Shown here in pieces: positions 5,666 through 58,046 of a DNA stretch of 64,000 bases. The DNA is taken from assembly GCA_013112585.1 (NCBI GenBank), contig JABFGH010000002.1:124001-188000 (forward strand). Direction: 5' to 3'. The stretch is from Ignavibacteriota bacterium (lineage in GTDB: Bacteria > Bacteroidota > Ignavibacteria > Ignavibacteriales > Melioribacteraceae). Numbering within the stretch: the first letter of the stretch is position 1; each line of letters starts with the position of its first letter. Under the pieces are notes generated by a model. It ran no database searches. It was not told the origin of the DNA and was given only the letters and a program-made list of their open reading frames with translations. Made by a program: the position numbers and the translations under genes.

Positions 5666-8155
5666 ATGAAAAAAATAATCTTAATATTTTTAATTCTGTT
5701 AACATTCAATCCAATATTCTCCCAAAACCCGGAATGGAAAAATTATACGAATGGGCAAGTTGTAAATGTTATAGCTATTGAAGATAGTTTATTATGGGTT
5801 GGAACAAATGGTGGCTTGGTTAAAATTGATGAAACGAATGATACTACTACGTATTTTACAAAAGCTTCAGGCTTGCCCTCTAATCATATTTATTCAATAA
5901 CCATAGACAAAAACGGCGATAAGTGGATTGGAACTGGCAGTGGATTGGTAAAATATGACGGCACGAATTGGACAATTAAAAATACTTCTAATTCTAATTT
6001 ACCGCATAATTATGTTAAGTTCATCACAACCGACAGTATTGATAATAAGTGGATTGGGACATATAGCGGATTAGCGAAATTTGACGGTACAAATTGGACA
6101 GTTTATAAAAGTTCTAATTCCGGTCTGCCGCAAAATGAAGTTTGTTCCATCGCTATAGACGAAAATGATAATAAATGGATTGGGACTTTTGGCGGCGGAC
6201 TGGCAAAATTCGATGGCACAAACTGGATCGTCTATGATAGTTTTAATTCTGGTCTTCCGTATAATTATATTAATTCTATCGCTATAGATGAAACTGGCAA
6301 TAAGTGGATTGGGACAATTGGTAGTGTACCCGGGACTGATGCATTTGGTTTAGTAAAATTTGACGGCGCAAACTGGACAGTTTATAATAAATCTAATTCG
6401 GGCTTGCCTGATAATTGGGTTCGTTCAATTGCTTTAGATGAGGTAGGTAATAAATGGATTGGGACTTCTAACTCTTTGGGCACTGGCAATGGGTTGGCAA
6501 AATTTGACGGTACAAACTGGACAGTTTATAGCACTTCTAATTCAGGTTTGCTTTCTAATTTAGTAATATCTCTTGCTATCGATGGAAGTGATAATAAGTT
6601 GATTGGTACAAATCGCGGGTTGGTAAAATTTGACGAAATAAATTGGACCGATTATAGTACTTCAAATTCTGGGCTTCCGACTAATGAAGTTTATTCAATA
6701 ATGGCAGGAAGGAACGATGTTAAGTGGATCGGGACTCGTTCCGGAGGATTGGTAAAGTTTGATGGTACTAATTGGACTGTTTTTAATATTTCTAATTCTG
6801 CATTACCAAACAATAAAATCACTTCAATAGCTATGGATAGTTTAGGAAATAAATGGATTGGAACTAGTGGCGGGGTTGGAAAATTTGACAATACAACATG
6901 GACTATTTATAATACATCAAACTCTGGTTTACCTAATGATATTGTTAGTGCCATCGCTATTGACCAAAACGGTAATAAATGGATCGCAACTTTATACGGC
7001 GGTTTGGCAAAATTTGATGATACTAACTGGTCCGTTTATAATAGTTCTAATTATGGGTTGCCTGGTAATTATATACATTCTCTATGTATAGATGGGAGTA
7101 ATAATAAGTGGATTGGGACTTATAATGGCGGATTGGCAAAATTTGACGATACAAACTGGACTATTTTTAATAGTTCAAATTCAGGTTTGCCATATAATTT
7201 AGTCTATTCTCTTTTCATCGATGGAAGTGATAATAAATGGATCGGTACTGAATACGGGTTAGCAAAATTCGATGGTACAAATTGGACTATTTATAATACA
7301 ACTAATTCAGGTTTGCCAGATAGAAGTGTTCGTTCTATTGTTGTTGAAGGAAGTGGTGATAAGTGGATTGGGACATTATACGGAGGATTAGCAAAATTTG
7401 ACGATTCTAGTTGGACAATTTTTAACATGAATAATTCCAGTTTACCCTATAATTGGATAATGGCGCTTGATATAGACGTTAACGGTAGCAAGTGGATTGC
7501 CACTCGGTACGGTGGGGTGGCGGTCTTTAACGAAGGGAATGTAGTTCCTGTTGAACTAACATCATTTAATGCAAGTGTATTTGATAGCGGGATTAGGCTC
7601 GATTGGGAGACTGCAACTGAATTAAACAATTTAGGTTTTGAAATTGAAAAAAAAGAAATTGTTAGCCTCAAAGATGTTAAGAATAATATCGGGTTTATAA
7701 ATATTGGATTTGTTGAAGGAGGAGGAAATTCAACTTCATTAAAGTCATATTCTTTTATTGATGAGAATCTAGCTGCAAATTCAATTAATACATATCGATT
7801 GAAGCAAATAGATTTTGATGGTACATTTGCATATTCAGAAGAAGTTGAAGTTACTTTTAATAATCCTCAGAACTTTTCACTCCACCAAAACTATCCAAAT
7901 CCATTTAACCCGGTGACAACTATTTCATATTCTCTTCCAAATACGTCAATGGTTTCACTTAAAGTTTATAATATACTTGGTAAGGAAGTAGCAACTTTAG
8001 TAAATGAAGAAAAACCATCGGGTTCATACAAAGTTGAATTTGATGCGGAGTCCGTCAGCCGACGGATAGCAAGCGGAATATATCTTTATAAATTAACAGC
8101 ATCAGGCGATGCTGGTAATTTTACTGAAACGAAGAAGTTAATACTTTTGAAGTAG
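5666..8155 (+). CDS. Secreted 14-blade beta-propeller protein with T9SS sorting tail (paralogue 1)
   Basis: The protein has a signal peptide ending at about residue 20 (IFSQ) and then fourteen WIGT-type repeats of about 42 residues, each of the form KWIGT..GLAKFDG-NWTVY-SNSGLP. These resemble the two-component-regulator propeller repeat. The C-terminal 90 residues are a type A T9SS sorting domain with NYPNPFNP and a KKLILLK end, so export and surface anchoring or release by type IX secretion is expected. I place the start at the ATG preceded by GAGGG; a TTG four codons upstream overlaps that ribosome-binding site. A close paralogue follows 44 bases downstream. No enzymatic motif is visible, so ligand or surface binding is inferred. 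Confidence 0.88.
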   Translation: MKKIILIFLILLTFNPIFSQNPEWKNYTNGQVVNVIAIEDSLLWVGTNGGLVKIDETNDTTTYFTKASGLPSNHIYSITIDKNGDKWIGTGSGLVKYDGTNWTIKNTSNSNLPHNYVKFITTDSIDNKWIGTYSGLAKFDGTNWTVYKSSNSGLPQNEVCSIAIDENDNKWIGTFGGGLAKFDGTNWIVYDSFNSGLPYNYINSIAIDETGNKWIGTIGSVPGTDAFGLVKFDGANWTVYNKSNSGLPDNWVRSIALDEVGNKWIGTSNSLGTGNGLAKFDGTNWTVYSTSNSGLLSNLVISLAIDGSDNKLIGTNRGLVKFDEINWTDYSTSNSGLPTNEVYSIMAGRNDVKWIGTRSGGLVKFDGTNWTVFNISNSALPNNKITSIAMDSLGNKWIGTSGGVGKFDNTTWTIYNTSNSGLPNDIVSAIAIDQNGNKWIATLYGGLAKFDDTNWSVYNSSNYGLPGNYIHSLCIDGSNNKWIGTYNGGLAKFDDTNWTIFNSSNSGLPYNLVYSLFIDGSDNKWIGTEYGLAKFDGTNWTIYNTTNSGLPDRSVRSIVVEGSGDKWIGTLYGGLAKFDDSSWTIFNMNNSSLPYNWIMALDIDVNGSKWIATRYGGVAVFNEGNVVPVELTSFNASVFDSGIRLDWETATELNNLGFEIEKKEIVSLKDVKNNIGFINIGFVEGGGNSTSLKSYSFIDENLAANSINTYRLKQIDFDGTFAYSEEVEVTFNNPQNFSLHQNYPNPFNPVTTISYSLPNTSMVSLKVYNILGKEVATLVNEEKPSGSYKVEFDAESVSRRIASGIYLYKLTASGDAGNFTETKKLILLK
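8051..8066. repeat. Palindrome inserted inside the T9SS sorting-domain coding region
   Basis: TCCGTC-AGCC-GACGGA forms a 6-bp perfect stem inside the gene and encodes part of ESVSRRIASG. The third T9SS protein of this window (53731-56133) lacks about four residues at this point (NAANYASG). The paralogue at 10597-10612 has a decayed version with two stem mismatches. This looks like a small palindromic element inserted in frame. Confidence 0.55.
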
Positions 8156-15215: not shown

Positions 15216-16124
15216 ATGGAAAAATTTTACGCCTTACGCAACGGGAAACTTACTCCTTACAATATTTCCAAATTGAAATATCCGGCAATAGTCCTTGGTT
15301 CAATTGTTCTGCTATCGCTTTCAATAAATTTTTTCAATTTATTTTCGGCACTATTTCCAAATTCGGATACGCGGCAGTTAAAAATTGAAAACAATGCACT
15401 TAAAAATAGGGTTAAGGCTATTTCCAATGATTTTGAAGAATTGAATACAAAAGTTGAAAATCTTTTATCAACAAATGATGAATTAAGATTAGCGGTAAAC
15501 TTAGGTCCTTCCGATACGGATGAACTGGGTATTGGCGGTTCCGTATTTGGCGAAACTCCCATTAATTCCTCAAGTGATATTAACGACTTATTGTTGAATA
15601 TTGATTCTTACATCAACAACATGAGTCTTAAAATTAATTATGAAGTAGAATCATACTCCGAAATTCAAAAGTCAATGGAAGATAATTCCAATCTTTTCAG
15701 TTGCATTCCTGCAATAAAACCTGCAAAAGGATATTACGGCGACCGATTCGGAATGCGCTACCATCCGATATTGAAGCGTAAAAGAATGCACAGCGGTTTA
15801 GATATACTTGCAAATATAGGCGAGCCGGTTTATGCTACTGCCGATGGTAAAGTTAGACTTGCAGGAAGAAACGGCGGTATGGGAAAGATGATAAGAATTG
15901 ATCATGGTTTTGGATATAAAACTTCTTACGCTCATCTATCAAAAATTAGTGTTAAGCGAGGTGCAAAAGTTAAGCGGGGTGATTTAATCGGCTATTCCGG
16001 TAATACAGGTCTATCAACCGGTCCACATCTACATTACGAAGTACATCATAACGGCATTGCTTTGAACCCGCGCAATTTTATTTACGATGATGTGAAGTTA
16101 TTTGAAATAGCTGCTCAAAATTAG
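15216..16124 (+). CDS. M23-family murein DD-endopeptidase with coiled coil and membrane anchor
   Basis: A short basic cytoplasmic head is followed by one transmembrane segment (about residues 25-45) and a coiled coil (about 55-100, ENNALKNRVKAISNDFEEL). The C-terminal LytM domain has GDRFGMRYHPILK, the HxxxD zinc motif in MHSGLD and the GPHLHYEVHHNG block, so the zinc ligands are complete. It should cleave peptidoglycan cross-links or be recruited by a divisome or elongation partner, as EnvC and MepM are. It is a single-gene unit after a 290-bp AT-rich spacer; TATAAT at 15125-15130 is a possible -10 element. A 7-bp tandem array begins at its stop codon. Confidence 0.88.
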   Translation: MEKFYALRNGKLTPYNISKLKYPAIVLGSIVLLSLSINFFNLFSALFPNSDTRQLKIENNALKNRVKAISNDFEELNTKVENLLSTNDELRLAVNLGPSDTDELGIGGSVFGETPINSSSDINDLLLNIDSYINNMSLKINYEVESYSEIQKSMEDNSNLFSCIPAIKPAKGYYGDRFGMRYHPILKRKRMHSGLDILANIGEPVYATADGKVRLAGRNGGMGKMIRIDHGFGYKTSYAHLSKISVKRGAKVKRGDLIGYSGNTGLSTGPHLHYEVHHNGIALNPRNFIYDDVKLFEIAAQN

Positions 16125-16192
16125 AATTCAGAATTCAGAATCCAGAATTAAGAATCCAGAATCAAGAATCAAGAATTCAGCATTCAGAATCA
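16123..16192. repeat. Heptanucleotide tandem array, ten units of AGAATYM
   Basis: Ten consecutive units of exactly 7 bp run from inside the M23 stop codon. They follow AGAATTC with drift to AGAATCC, AGAATCA and AGAATTA, plus one AGCATTC. The period is strict with no insertions or deletions, so the array arose by slippage or amplification and then diverged by point changes. Confidence 0.9.
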
Positions 16193-16225
16193 TAGAATTA
16201 TCATATCTATATTTTTCTTTTTAAA

Positions 16226-16297
16226 CTATTTAACAATTTAGCCATTTAACAATTTAGCCATTTAACCATTTAACCATAAAGCCATTCAACCATTCTC
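16226..16297. repeat. Octanucleotide tandem array, nine units near CCATTTAA
   Basis: Nine consecutive 8-bp units alternate between CCATTTAA and CAATTTAG before degenerating to CCATAAAG, CCATTCAA and CCATTCTC. It lies 33 bases beyond the heptad array and upstream of dapF. The remaining sequence to the dapF start is AT-rich, with no recognisable promoter. Confidence 0.9.
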
Positions 16298-52796: not shown

Positions 52797-53741
52797 ATGC
52801 GACTTATTATTTTATTTCTGCTGATTAGTGCTCAAATTTTGATCGGACAAAATGTAACTGTAAATAATATTACAAAAGTAATGCAGCAATCACAGGGCGA
52901 ATTTTATTATCCGAAATTTAACCCTGATGGTTCACAGCTATTATTGACAAATGCTAATTACCAGGGGCTATGGATTTATGATCTTGGTAAAAAGCAATTA
53001 TCACAATTAAATTTTTATAACGGCGCAGGCTACAGTTCGGTATTTTCTGATGACGGTTTGAAAATTATTTATCGTGCCGATGAATTTATGGGAATGCGAA
53101 AATATTCTTCCCTAATTGTTCAGGATATTAAATCGGGGAACGAGACTTTAGTAGAACAAAAAATAAGAAACTTATCGGTGCCGGAAGTTTTGACTAACGG
53201 ACAAATATTTTACACAAAAGATTTTAACGCAGGTGTTTTTGATCATCGTGCGAATAAATCAATTGATAATAAAGTTGAAGCCTCGGTTGCTTACACCGAA
53301 AATTATAAAATTGCATTATACAGCAAGGAAAGAATTGAACTTCAGCCTTTAGGTAAAAACAATTATATCTGGGTTTCAATTTCTCCGCAGCAAGATAAAC
53401 TGCTTTTTACAGTGCCGGGTAAAGGAACCTATATTTCAGATTTACAGGGAAATATTTTAGTTGAGCTTGGATATGCCAATGCACCTGTTTGGTCGCCAAA
53501 TAATAAGTATGTGGCTTACATGGTTGATAAAGACGACGGTTACCAAGTAACAAGTTCAGAAATATTTGTTGCCTCTGCTGATGGAAAAAATAAATATCAA
53601 ATTACAAATACATCAGATATTTCAGAGATGTATCCAAACTGGTCTCAATCAGGTTCAAAGTTGACTTTCAATTCAACTGATGGAGAAATATTTATTGCGG
53701 AATTAAGAATTGAAAAAGAAGGTGCTGGAAATGAAAAATAA
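52797..53741 (+). CDS. Secreted TolB-like PD40 beta-propeller
   Basis: A signal peptide (MRLIILFLLISAQILIGQ) is followed by PD40/WD-like repeats: YYPKFNPDGSQLLLTN, SSVFSDDGLKIIYRADE, WVSISPQQDKLLFT, APVWSPNNKYVAYMVD and YPNWSQSGSKLTFNS. TolB-like propellers bind proteins or peptides in the periplasm. I use the ATG nine bases after GGAG; an upstream ATG overlaps that site. Its last codons overlap the start of the amidase gene, so the two proteins are translationally coupled and may act together. Confidence 0.8.
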   Translation: MRLIILFLLISAQILIGQNVTVNNITKVMQQSQGEFYYPKFNPDGSQLLLTNANYQGLWIYDLGKKQLSQLNFYNGAGYSSVFSDDGLKIIYRADEFMGMRKYSSLIVQDIKSGNETLVEQKIRNLSVPEVLTNGQIFYTKDFNAGVFDHRANKSIDNKVEASVAYTENYKIALYSKERIELQPLGKNNYIWVSISPQQDKLLFTVPGKGTYISDLQGNILVELGYANAPVWSPNNKYVAYMVDKDDGYQVTSSEIFVASADGKNKYQITNTSDISEMYPNWSQSGSKLTFNSTDGEIFIAELRIEKEGAGNEK

Positions 53742-56133
53742 ATTTAATATACAAATCAGTTTAATTTTAGTTTTATTGATTGCTTCAGTTACAATCAATT
53801 CAAATCTTTCTGCTCAATCCTTATTCGGTATTAAAATATGTATTGACCCCGGACACGGCGGGCATGACCCGGCAAACGATAGATATATTCCCGAAACCGG
53901 TTTTTGGGAATCGGACGGTAATTTTAGCAAAGCCTTATTTTTAAGGGATATTCTTGAAGACCTTGGTGCAGTAGTAATTTTAACCCGTCTCGGGAATGAT
54001 GATTCGGATGACATCTCACTTTCAGCAAGAAGAGCTGTTGCAAACTCAAACGGTGTGGATTATTTTCATTCAATTCACAGCAACGGTTTTAACGGTCAAT
54101 CTAATTATACATTGATGCTTTTTAACGGTACTGATGGAAGCCCAACATGGGCTCAAGCCAAACAGATGGGGGCTATAATGTCTCCTCAAATTAAAAATGC
54201 CCATAGAACAACTGCCCACTATAACCGAGGCGATGTTTCCTTTTTGGGATTTAATTTGGGTGTACTAAATGGTACTAGTATGCCTGCAACACTCTCAGAA
54301 GGATCCTTCCACGATTATATTCCCGAATCGTGGAGATTAAGAAACGATGTTTATAAAAAACATGAGGCATGGGCGATAGCGCGTTCATTTATGGATTATT
54401 TTAATGCCGGTGATTTTACTTCCGGCGAAATTGCAGGAATTCTTAGAGACCCATTAGAGAACGTACCTTACTACTACATATCATCATTAGGCGATGCTAA
54501 AAGACCCCTTAACCAAATCCAAGTAACACTTGAACCCGGAAATATTCAATTTGAAGGGGATGATTTCAATAACGGATTTTTCCTCTTTGATGAATTATCA
54601 CCCGGAGAATATACTGTTTACTTTAATGTTGATGATTATGCGTTCGATTCTGTGGCTGTAAATGTCCTTGCAAACTCGACTGTATTCGCTGATAAAAACT
54701 TACCGCTAGATCAATCTTTATCTGCTCCTTCAATTATTGATTTTTACCCTGGATTAGGTTCACCAGGTATTAGTTTATCGGACGATATTGAACTTCTTTT
54801 TGATATTAGAATGAATAAAGCTTCTGTTGAAAATGCTATTACAATTACTCCTGGGGTTGATAGTACATTATCGTGGCCGTGGGCTTATAAAAACAAAAAA
54901 TTAATTATTAATCCAATAGAAAACTTACTTCCAGGTACAGTTTACGAAGTGAAAATATCTACAGATGCTGAATCTATATTTGGCGTTCCGCTTGCTGAGG
55001 AGTTTTCGTTTAATTTTACAACAAGATCTAATTTAACAATATTAAGTGCCTATCCTGATTTCAACAGCATTGAAATTTCTCCAACCGTTGAAATAAGATT
55101 AGAATTTGATGCCCCAATTTTTCAGCAGTCATTAGCAGGAAATATTGGATTGTTTGATGGCGATAATAATGAACTATTAGTTAACGTTGATATATCTTCT
55201 TTTCAAAGAGGAGAAATAATTTTTGAACCGAAAGACCCATTAAATATTAATACCGCTTATCAAATACGATTACTATCCGGTATTACCGATACCGAAGGAT
55301 TAACGCTTGGTCAAGATTACTTTATCGATTTTGTAACGGAAGCTGAAGGTTACACAAACGGAACAATTCTCGATGATATGGAAAGTATCGGAACATGGCA
55401 GGAACCTGAGCAAAGTACAACTTCCGTTGGTATTGTTGAAGGCGAAACTAACTTTACAATTGTCAGCAGCAGAAATGTTTTAGGAGATAAGTCCGGCAGA
55501 CTGACTTATACTTTTAACAGCACAGGAGGCATTTGCCGTGTGAATAATACATCTCCAATTGCAATAGGTACAAATGCTGCATCAAATTTTGGTATTTGGG
55601 TGTTCGGCGATTTAAGCTACAATGAAATCGAATACTGGTTTGTCGATGCCGGGTCAAACAATGTTGAAGTTTTAATTGATACGTTAGACTGGACCGGATG
55701 GAAAATGAAATTTCTTCCAATCGGAGATATTCCGGGAAGCGGAGAAAAACAATTTCATAGTTTTGTAATAAATCAGACAGAAAACGGAAATTTGACCGGT
55801 GAGTTATTCTTCGACGGAGTTCAATCGGATGTTGTAACCGACATTGGTGAAAACGGAAATACAATAGTTACTGATTACAAGCTTTTCCAAAATTATCCTA
55901 ATCCGTTTAATCCATCAACAGTAATAAAATACAGTTTGCTCGAAGCCGGATTGGTAAATATTAAAATATATGATATTCTCGGAAATGAAATTGCAACATT
56001 ACTAAATGGTGAAAAAAATGCAGGCTCCCACTCTATTGAATTTAATGCAGCAAATTATGCGAGTGGAGTTTACTTCTACAAAATATCTTCCGGAAGTTTT
56101 GTTAGCGTTAAAAAGATGATGCTTTTGAAATAG
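53731..56133 (+). CDS. Secreted N-acetylmuramoyl-L-alanine amidase (Amidase_3) with Ig-like domains and T9SS tail
   Basis: After the signal peptide (ending LSAQ) comes an Amidase_3 domain with zinc ligands H42 in IDPGHGGHDP, E60 and H116 in HSIHSNG, and the catalytic glutamate E190 in LSEGSF. Two Big_5/SbsA-type Ig-like domains follow (about 330-530), then a beta-rich region and the C-terminal T9SS sorting domain (NYPNPFNP, SGVYFYKI, KKMMLLK). It should cut the amide bond between MurNAc and the stem peptide, probably after export to the surface. The start overlaps the PD40 gene. The T9SS tail on an amidase suggests a target outside the cell. Confidence 0.9.
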   Translation: MKNKFNIQISLILVLLIASVTINSNLSAQSLFGIKICIDPGHGGHDPANDRYIPETGFWESDGNFSKALFLRDILEDLGAVVILTRLGNDDSDDISLSARRAVANSNGVDYFHSIHSNGFNGQSNYTLMLFNGTDGSPTWAQAKQMGAIMSPQIKNAHRTTAHYNRGDVSFLGFNLGVLNGTSMPATLSEGSFHDYIPESWRLRNDVYKKHEAWAIARSFMDYFNAGDFTSGEIAGILRDPLENVPYYYISSLGDAKRPLNQIQVTLEPGNIQFEGDDFNNGFFLFDELSPGEYTVYFNVDDYAFDSVAVNVLANSTVFADKNLPLDQSLSAPSIIDFYPGLGSPGISLSDDIELLFDIRMNKASVENAITITPGVDSTLSWPWAYKNKKLIINPIENLLPGTVYEVKISTDAESIFGVPLAEEFSFNFTTRSNLTILSAYPDFNSIEISPTVEIRLEFDAPIFQQSLAGNIGLFDGDNNELLVNVDISSFQRGEIIFEPKDPLNINTAYQIRLLSGITDTEGLTLGQDYFIDFVTEAEGYTNGTILDDMESIGTWQEPEQSTTSVGIVEGETNFTIVSSRNVLGDKSGRLTYTFNSTGGICRVNNTSPIAIGTNAASNFGIWVFGDLSYNEIEYWFVDAGSNNVEVLIDTLDWTGWKMKFLPIGDIPGSGEKQFHSFVINQTENGNLTGELFFDGVQSDVVTDIGENGNTIVTDYKLFQNYPNPFNPSTVIKYSLLEAGLVNIKIYDILGNEIATLLNGEKNAGSHSIEFNAANYASGVYFYKISSGSFVSVKKMMLLK

Positions 56134-56170
56134 GAGTTAGTAGTTAGGAGTTAGTAGTTAGGAGTTAGTA
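56133..56170. repeat. Heptanucleotide repeat (GGAGTTA/GTAGTTA alternation)
   Basis: Beginning at the last base of the amidase stop codon, 7-bp units GGAGTTA and GTAGTTA alternate through five units, giving a 14-bp higher-order period, and then decay. This is the second tandem array of this kind that starts at a stop codon. Confidence 0.85.
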
Positions 56171-56180
56171 TAAAAACTTT

Positions 56181-56240
56181 AAAGCCGCTTTCATTTGTCT
56201 TTAGTTAGGTTTTAATAATGAAGAGCGGCTTTTTGTTTTT
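56181..56240 (+). terminator. Long-stem intrinsic terminator after the T9SS amidase gene
   Basis: AAAGCCGCT-TTCATT pairs with AATGAA-G-AGCGGCTTT (one bulged base), leaving a 21-base loop, and ends in TTGTTTTT. The loop is larger than usual but the stem and T-run are good. Confidence 0.75.
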
Positions 56241-56288: not shown

Positions 56289-56499
56289 AAATTGCAAAAG
56301 ACAAACTGCAAAAGACAAATTTCAAATGACAAATCACTACTGACAAATTCCAAATTGCAAATAACAAAACCCAAAAGACAAATCGCAAAAGACAAAACAC
56401 AAAAGACAAATCACTACTGACAAATCACAAATTGCAAATAACAAATTGCAAATAACAAACCCCAAAAGACAAATAACAAAAAACAAAACAACAAATGAC
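56289..56499. repeat. AAANNNC heptad array, 28 units in strict register
   Basis: From 56289 to 56484, twenty-eight consecutive 7-bp units fit AAANNNC (two variants begin TAC). They include AAAAGAC, AAATAAC, AAATTGC, AAATCAC and AAACCCC. One 8-bp slip follows at 56485, then AAATGAC. The ends (A and C) are fixed while the three middle bases vary, unlike a simple slipped microsatellite. The array lies between the amidase terminator and the NhaC antiporter, and no gene is visible in it. Confidence 0.92.
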
Positions 56500-56558
56500 A
56501 AAATCTTTAACAGGATAGTCAGGTTGAGCCTTGTCGAAGCTTAGCGGACATTTTTATT

Positions 56559-58046
56559 CTAATGCACCAAAAACCCAAGCACCAAATAGATCAATGCTGT
56601 TATGGTCCCGGCGAATAGTGCATAGGGCAATTGTGTTTTAACATGATCAATATGATCACAGGCAGAAGCCATTGAAGCAATAATTGTGGTATCGGATATA
56701 GGTGAACAGTGATCACCGAATACTCCGCCGCCAAGTGCTGCCGCAACAGTTAAATAAATATTTGCATCCAATGTCTGCGCCATCGGAATACCGATTGCTA
56801 TCATAATTGCAAAAGTTCCCCATGATGTTCCGGTAGAGAAAGCAATAAAACAGGCAACAAGAAAAACAATTACCGGGACAAAGTTAGGTGATAACCAGGC
56901 TTTTGAAATCTCAGCAACATAAATTCCGGTACCTAACTCACGGCAAACAGTGCCTATTGCAAAAGCAAGCATCATAAGCAAAGCTAATGGAATCAAGCCG
57001 CTTATACCTTTAAATGTTAGATCGATGATTTCTTGAAATTTAAAAATTCCTTGTACACTATAAAGAATTGCACCGGTAAAAATAGCGGTAAGCACTGAAT
57101 ACAAAACTGAAGCCGAACCGGAGCCTTGACCTATAGCAGCAAATAGTTGTTCATACCAAGGCATCTGATCAATATTTTCAACTGCTCCCCAGCCTGTTGC
57201 AAGCAGCATTATCGGCATCATAGCAACCATTGTAAAAATCGGAATTATCATATTGCGGGCACGTGCCGGTGTATCTTCTTTCGGCTCCATTGCAACAATA
57301 TCCGATGACATCATTGGTGTTGCTCCATCACGAATTACTTTGCCTTCTTTTATTGCACGCTCTTCTGCCTTTTTCATTGGACCGAAATCTTTTTGAGTTA
57401 GTATAATTACTACAACCAAAATTATTGCGAGCATTGGATAAAAATTAAATGGAAATGCCGCAATCAAAACACCCAAAGGATTTTCAAAACCCTGTGCGGC
57501 TATAAGTCCCATTATATATGCACCCCAGGCATTTAGGGGAATTAGAATGCAAGTTGGTGCGGATATCGAATCGGCAATGTATGCCAATTTTTCACGAGGG
57601 ATTTTTAGTTTGTCAAATATTGGTCGGAATATTGAACCTACAGTTAACACATTAATACTTGATTCAACAAAGATTAAAGTTCCTGTTAACCATGCAAGCA
57701 TCTGCACAACAACCCGCTTCTTACCAATTTTTCTTCGTTCAAATGAGTCGAGTATTCTATTGATATAAACTATAAATCCCTTTACACCGCCGGATCTTTG
57801 AATAAAGGCAATCAATGCGCCGATCAAGCTGCTGAACATTATTGTTCTGGTATTACCGGGGTTTTTAAAAACATCAACCAGCGCTTGAACTGTTGCGACT
57901 GTGCCGGTTAAAAAATTTCCTCCGCTCAAAATTATCCATCCAAGCCAAATGCCGAATAATAATGAAACAAAAACTTGTCGTGTTTTTATTGCAAGTATAA
58001 TTGCAATTAGAGGCGGGAATAAAGACCAGAAACTAAAATGATCCAT
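56559..58046 (-). CDS. NhaC-family Na+/H+ antiporter
   Basis: A 495-residue polytopic membrane protein with about a dozen hydrophobic helices. The N-terminal SFWSLFPPLIAIILAIKTRQV and the C-terminal GGGVFGDHCSPISDTTIIASMAS segment are hallmarks of the NhaC family. These exchangers move Na+ or organic ions against protons and help pH and osmotic balance. A cytoplasmic loop (about 215-265) is charged. The ATG has AGGA upstream. The gene is monocistronic and convergent with the amidase gene across the heptad array. Confidence 0.9.
   Translation of the reverse strand: MDHFSFWSLFPPLIAIILAIKTRQVFVSLLFGIWLGWIILSGGNFLTGTVATVQALVDVFKNPGNTRTIMFSSLIGALIAFIQRSGGVKGFIVYINRILDSFERRKIGKKRVVVQMLAWLTGTLIFVESSINVLTVGSIFRPIFDKLKIPREKLAYIADSISAPTCILIPLNAWGAYIMGLIAAQGFENPLGVLIAAFPFNFYPMLAIILVVVIILTQKDFGPMKKAEERAIKEGKVIRDGATPMMSSDIVAMEPKEDTPARARNMIIPIFTMVAMMPIMLLATGWGAVENIDQMPWYEQLFAAIGQGSGSASVLYSVLTAIFTGAILYSVQGIFKFQEIIDLTFKGISGLIPLALLMMLAFAIGTVCRELGTGIYVAEISKAWLSPNFVPVIVFLVACFIAFSTGTSWGTFAIMIAIGIPMAQTLDANIYLTVAAALGGGVFGDHCSPISDTTIIASMASACDHIDHVKTQLPYALFAGTITALIYLVLGFLVH

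Follow-up and report, generated by a model that had tools for sequence, protein, structure and literature searches.

Between two converging genes of an Ignavibacteriota bacterium lies a run of seven-letter units whose ends stay constant while the three middle bases vary, and the question raised by this locus is whether the run is a control device, was written from a template, or is a by-product of DNA copying. The window analyzed here is the whole stretch of 64,000 nucleotides, in which the array sits in a 425-bp gap between converging genes for a secreted amidase and an NhaC-type antiporter. The features of this gap, and of a second gap with arrays, are as follows.

53710..56133, + strand: N-acetylmuramoyl-L-alanine amidase (Amidase_3) with Big_5 and Por_Secre_tail domains, upstream gene (Pfam)
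56131..56170, + strand: second heptamer array TTAGGAG/TTAGTAG, a perfect 14-bp dimer (TRF, 100% matches at period 14)
56181..56236, + strand: terminator-like hairpin between the two arrays, with a T-rich tail behind it (fold -16.7 kcal/mol, z -3.2)
56289..56484, + strand: heptamer array of 28 units with a 14-bp superperiod (AAAWRAC alternating with AAANNNC) and a 77-bp internal duplication (in-frame reading, TRF, shuffles, alternation test)
56485..56505, + strand: phase-shifted tail of the heptamer array, AAAACAACAAATGACAAAATC (sequence)
56519..56539, + strand: TCAGGTTGAGCCTTGTCGAAG, adjoining the heptamer array, single copy in the genome (genome pattern search, 3 mismatches)
56559..58046, - strand: Na+/H+ antiporter (NhaC-like, PF03553), converging gene (Pfam)
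16118..16190, + strand: third heptamer array AGAATTC/AGAATCC/AGAATCA (AGAATNC) (lag scan)
16221..16295, + strand: octamer array CATTTAAC/CATTTAGC (lag scan, TRF)

When read in frame, the array at 56289-56484 consists of 28 in-phase 7-bp units, 26 of them AAANNNC and two of them identical TACTGAC units starting at 56338 and 56415. This confirms the strict 7-bp array with two TAC-starting units that a preliminary description had reported: (AAANNNC)x4 gave 17 matches in the window, all within the array, and none in 100 dinucleotide shuffles. The two TACTGAC units are copies inside a single 77-bp internal duplication (TRF period 77, 56295-56502), the TRF periods for the array being 14, 28 and 77. 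Past 56484 the units continue one base out of phase, with about two partial ones reaching to about 56505. The 28 units include 14 distinct ones, no two adjacent units are identical, and A makes up 112 of the 196 bases. The lag identity is 0.67 at 7, and it is higher at 14 (0.76), 77 (0.82) and 91 (0.83) because units of the form AAA[A/T][A/G]AC (the WRAC class) alternate with other cores; 23 of 27 steps switch between the two classes, where 14 were expected, and this was reached in 0 of 5000 permutations. Seven bp is not the whole period of this array, which has a 14-bp superperiod. DNA curvature, which had been raised as a property to check, is not expected, with A-tract phasing of 0.10 at 10.5 bp versus 0.86 at 7 bp.

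Within the same gap, the TTAGGAG/TTAGTAG array begins where the amidase gene stops, at its TAG codon. The hairpin at 56181-56236 was missed by a simple terminator scan because its loop exceeds 8 nt. The adjoining TCAGGTTGAGCCTTGTCGAAG has no significant fold, and TTGAGCCTTGTCGAAG next to the array was rejected as a repeat family, as the genome pattern search (3 mismatches) returned a single copy. In the other gap (16118-16295), which is shared by the AGAATNC array and the CATTTAAC-type octamer array, the gene before the arrays has its stop codon inside the first AGAATNC unit. The Rfam search gave nothing above gathering and one sub-threshold match, outside the window array, and a blastn search for phage or plasmid matches to the array, limited by low-complexity filtering, gave none. 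Elsewhere in the window, tandem 126-129 bp repeats (TRF, 6040-7405) are probably coding repeats of a protein.

The preliminary description had allowed that the array might be a single local accident, and a search of the genome and its relatives showed that it is not, since related arrays abound. (AAANNNC)x5 has 257 overlapping matches in the genome (109 + 148), while the reversed-pattern control has 0. A motif-independent, unbiased period scan was carried out over 1.66 Mb, one third of the genome, and revealed 24 intergenic arrays at period 7 (25 counting one found at lag 14), 12 at period 8, one at 11 and one at 15, with no arrays at periods 4-6, 9, 10, 12 or 13. The heptamer motifs of the genome (CAAATNN, CTAACTN, TTCTGAN, CGACTAC, GGTTGCA) are unrelated to each other, and they are accompanied by the octamer motifs ATGGTTGN, GATTACAA, ACGTNGAA and CTTGTAAT and by pure arrays such as CGACTACx10 and ATTTGAGx9. 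By gene calls all scanned arrays are intergenic, and the overlapping ORFs (<=125 aa) are spurious ones created by the arrays. This genome contains roughly a hundred recently gained intergenic arrays of 7- or 8-letter units. The scanned arrays cluster, as gaps with >=2 arrays number 10 against 2.5 expected, and some occur in divergent gaps. Their edges lie <=5 bp from a stop codon in 10 cases against 2.3 expected (never more than 7 in 1000 placements), and <=5 bp from a start codon in 4 cases against 2.2. Relative to codirectional neighbours, the AAANNNC strand is mixed (about 4 sense, 8 antisense).

To a large degree, variation within the arrays is confined to the core. When the 14 distinct units of the window array were joined in a minimum spanning tree, 12 of 14 changes fell in the three core columns (P = 0.0013), and uniform column variation was rejected in 21 of 34 unbiased arrays; the pooled count, 112 of 117 changes in core columns, is inflated because those arrays had been chosen by the pattern. 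Adjacent identical units are rarer than in shuffled order (11 vs 32.8 +- 4.6), and identical second neighbours are more frequent (50 vs 30.7). The lag-1 deficit is limited to the CAAANNN class, and the other heptamers and the octamers have the lag-2 excess only. Block duplications of 14, 35, 42 and 77 bp were found. Among the cores, TAA, TGA or TAG account for 112 of 237; over the intergenic background, counted by array, TGA is enriched 9.6-fold and TAA and TAG 3.5 to 4.5-fold. In neutral simulations, whose parameters were chosen by us, mutation was uniform and duplication acted either on single units or on blocks; in each setting 0 of 400 runs had a column bias as strong as the observed one, and neighbouring units came out identical too often. 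The earlier statement that the array is unlike a normal slipped microsatellite is thus borne out, as neither the column restriction nor the avoidance of identical neighbours was reproduced by simulated slippage with uniform mutation.

The relatives compared all belong to other genera. The amidase and NhaC genes converge in three of them (G016, G019 and G004), where the gap is about 40 to 240 bp and contains no array, and no array was found in the 1.5-kb flanks of the NhaC loci of 13 of 13 relatives. G016, from another genus of the family, has abundant AAANNNC arrays elsewhere, yet its amidase-NhaC gap of ~40 bp has none. Similarly, the dut-dnaE gap of our genome contains one heptamer and one octamer array; of 26 relatives examined, 24 have dut upstream of dnaE, and 24 of the 26 lack any array in the region upstream of dnaE, while G022 and G006 have heptamers of other, unrelated motifs there. 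Because the same loci of relatives lack arrays, the arrays have been gained repeatedly and independently, locus by locus, and the window array is recent in its lineage since relatives that share the gene pair have no array at this site. The preliminary description's proposal of an old array under selection for its period does not agree with this empty site, and conservation was seen in neither position nor orientation.

In ~0.58 Mb of stretches from six relatives no 7- or 8-bp array was found, while the sampled stretches of G037 gave two and those of G016, partly picked for their matches, gave twelve. Across the phylum, (AAANNNC)x6 occurs in 38 of 395 genomes, mostly with one or two unit types, and our genome has by far the most matches (222). 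The x9 pattern was found in many phyla, Cyanobacteria and Bacteroidota being prominent, mostly as pure arrays. As separate observations, composite gaps in G016 (L237-L239) run from a GACGTGA-type heptamer array through NNNTGAC to AAATTCC units, an order repeated at many sites, and in G037 (L253:17764-17842) the heptamer unit shifts base by base (TTTCAAC, TTTTAAC, TCTTAAC, TATTATC, TCCTGAC), possibly a record of stepwise copying with errors. A literature search for Ignavibacteria together with heptamers returned no papers. T9SS tails would place the bacterium among the Bacteroidota and their relatives.

Given these results, we propose that the window array is a recently gained, neutral intergenic satellite without a conserved host role, produced by step-back copying over ~7 nt and by block duplication, a reading to which we assign a probability of about one half. 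DNA copying would repeatedly step back by ~7 nt, or by 8 nt in making the genome's octamer arrays, with the growing 3' end re-pairing on the constant CAAA as a re-annealing anchor during replication slippage. Units with a broken CAAA would not be copied onward and would be lost, whereas the three core bases, needing no pairing, would drift; variation would be confined to the core because a unit has to keep CAAA for onward copying. The array would grow as blocks of 2 to 11 units are duplicated, and the rarity of identical neighbours could come from a collapse of perfect repeats, leaving alternating, non-identical units.

This reading builds on direct observations, namely that the arrays keep to periods of 7 and 8, have several unrelated motifs, lie between genes, are missing at ortholog sites, contain block duplications and vary only in the core; the anchor-dependent copying is a deduction from them. 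Step length is what stays constant, and fixed-step slippage with CAAA re-annealing and block duplication is therefore favoured. The lack of conservation in both place and orientation, together with the like behaviour of unrelated motifs, makes a conserved function unlikely, and the arrays are most likely by-products of fixed-distance step-back copying rather than control devices. Against slippage stands the deficit of adjacent identical units, the opposite of what simple slippage gives, and the collapse step is only hypothetical. Pure random slippage also does not predict the clustering of arrays, their edges at stop codons or the REP-like palindromes nearby; the stop codon may simply be the nearest tolerated site to the gene, and the palindromes may lie nearby because hairpins stall the polymerase or because REP elements inserted into arrays. 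Two other candidate causes were rejected: lost mismatch repair does not explain slippage here because MutS was found in the genome, and a special error-prone polymerase was dismissed, as the genome has one DinB-type gene, the same as its relatives.

Among the alternatives, a selected binding array, in which CAAA or WRAC, recurring every 7 nt, is recognized by a protein that binds DNA or RNA or serves to stop ribosomes, so that selection keeps the anchors while leaving the cores free, would account for constant anchor columns beside variable cores, for the TAA, TGA and TAG enrichment and for array edges at stop codons. We consider it unlikely, given that orthologous sites show no conservation and that separate proteins would be needed for the unrelated motifs and the 8-bp arrays of one genome. 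The mixed strand of AAANNNC speaks against it too, since antisense arrays give the sense strand few stops, as do the similar stop-codon counts on both strands of the window array. An all-frame stop-codon function was rejected on the same two points of orientation and strand, despite the stop-rich cores.

Equally unlikely in our judgement is a composite linked to REP elements, in which arrays are made or spread with REP-like palindromes via Y1 (RAYT-type) transposases and a nick at the hairpin foot seeds heptamer synthesis. The palindrome CCTGCCTGCCGGAAGGCGGG adjoins AAANNNC arrays in the same orientation at several loci, other genera have similar palindromes within TTTG-rich repeats, and the genome has 8 Y1_Tnp genes. 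However, most arrays lack such a palindrome. The window array is among them: it is not a palindromic 20-40 bp element of the REP/BIME kind, its fold is not significant (z +0.66), and its adjoining sequence is single copy and non-folding. Y1_Tnp genes are just as common in relatives without AAANNNC arrays, and the array does not travel as one element, because its sequence differs from copy to copy.

The palindromes were also observed in their own right. CCTGCC..GGCAGG abuts or interrupts heptamer arrays (TTTGNNN, TTTTTCC, TTTCACC), with the longer array mostly on the same side, at L284-L288, L300 and L308 and, in our own genome, at C2:19396, C3:75070, C3:103942, C4:115266 and C5:181410. A palindrome-bearing heptamer array lies in the 850-bp gap at C4:114732-115583, flanked by genes that, judged by eye from their translations, are flgE-like and fliL-like and apparently belong to a flagellar gene cluster. 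In other genera of the order (L310, L312, L316, L317), a longer palindrome ACCTGCCCGCC..GGCAGGCGGGT lies within TTTG-rich repeats, so the pairing of palindrome and heptamers recurs outside this genus. Inverted pairs of CCGTCCGGCAGGCGGGTATG and CCGTCCGGCAGGCGGGATTG, about 120-140 bp apart and dispersed at several loci of our genome (for example C1:51016/51156, C2:116835/116955, C6:139091/139210 and C13:49417/49537), look like a BIME/REPIN family.

Decay of an ordinary microsatellite, that is, a pure (CAAATAA)n array that gathered point mutations, finds a parallel in the pure arrays of the genome; yet decay would strike all columns, and the simulations, which missed the column bias and gave too many identical neighbours, already disfavour this explanation, leaving it quite improbable. 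Slightly less probable again is a transcription end region, with the hairpin and a TTTG-rich array forming a terminator or insulator between neighbours: TTTGNNN follows the palindrome in the sense direction at several co-directional sites and a strong T-tailed hairpin stands between the two window arrays, but this hairpin suffices alone, arrays also occur in divergent gaps, and the same gaps of relatives have none. Least probable is a telomerase-like or DGR-like enzyme writing heptamers from a short template: the fixed frame, variable core and 14-nt alternation do look written rather than decayed, but many motifs would require many templates and no reverse transcriptase domain (PF00078) was matched in the genome, as a diversity-generating retroelement or RT-written array would need. 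Copying from a patterned template, suggested in the preliminary description, may underlie the array, but reverse transcriptase, the machinery first expected for it, was undetected in the genome.

The dominance of heptamers among bacterial simple repeats has been an open question since 2007. About a hundred imperfect 7- and 8-bp arrays with many motifs and empty sites in relatives suggest that step length, not sequence, is conserved. Any mechanism put forward will have to yield two signatures that can be measured: the anchor/core pattern and the avoidance of identical units side by side. More broadly, it is conceivable, if rather doubtful, that a period-locked (7-8 nt), motif-independent process writes bacterial intergenic DNA, keeping a four-base anchor, leaving the core free and alternating two unit classes over 14 nt; if true, DNA would be copied in several lineages by a mechanism other than ordinary slippage.

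The arrays belong by kind to the bacterial heptamer arrays (STRR, TAACTGA, GGGGA(C/T)T, long SSRs) and by motif to none of these. The STRR motif of cyanobacteria is presumably of the CCCCA(A/G)T type; tandem pairs of it, like those of TAACTGA, number 0 in 1.66 Mb of the genome, so the likeness to STRR noted earlier holds in kind and fails in sequence. The 2007 survey of heptanucleotide long SSRs reportedly covered perfect repeats, whereas the arrays here are mostly imperfect; perfect-repeat searches would miss or split such arrays, and surveys of that type would undercount them. As that work (Mrazek et al. 2007) is cited in PMC4679880 and PMC4692102, it found an excess of the 7-nt period across bacteria, a feature our arrays share, tied heptamer abundance to polymerase contact length and proposed slippage. 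REP, BIME and REPIN elements with RAYT transposases (PMC2817692, PMC3116915) are likewise intergenic and dispersed, and such palindromes adjoin some arrays of this genome, but the window array is non-palindromic and without a significant fold. The TAACTGA direct repeats of marine Beggiatoaceae, Cyanobacteria and Bacteroidetes (MacGregor 2015, PMC4679880) resemble our arrays in being intergenic heptamer arrays with strain-specific placement, mixed heptamers in some genomes and the same site without an array in neighbours. They are, however, one exact motif, in Beggiatoaceae mainly just upstream of start codons, whereas here a motif class is found, more often at stop codons (edges near stops 10 vs 2.3 expected, near starts 4 vs 2.2). 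The STRR heptamers of heterocystous cyanobacteria and the GGGGA(C/T)T arrays of Nostoc (PMC4692102) have 7-bp units at many loci, mostly intergenic and with some degeneracy within the unit, as ours do, while our arrays differ in their unrelated motif, three contiguous variable core bases, 14-bp superperiod and coexisting octamer arrays. They also depart from the near-identical neighbours usual in known heptamer arrays of the LSSR/STRR kind, with 11 adjacent identical units where 32.8 were expected and 14 distinct units among the 28 of the window array.
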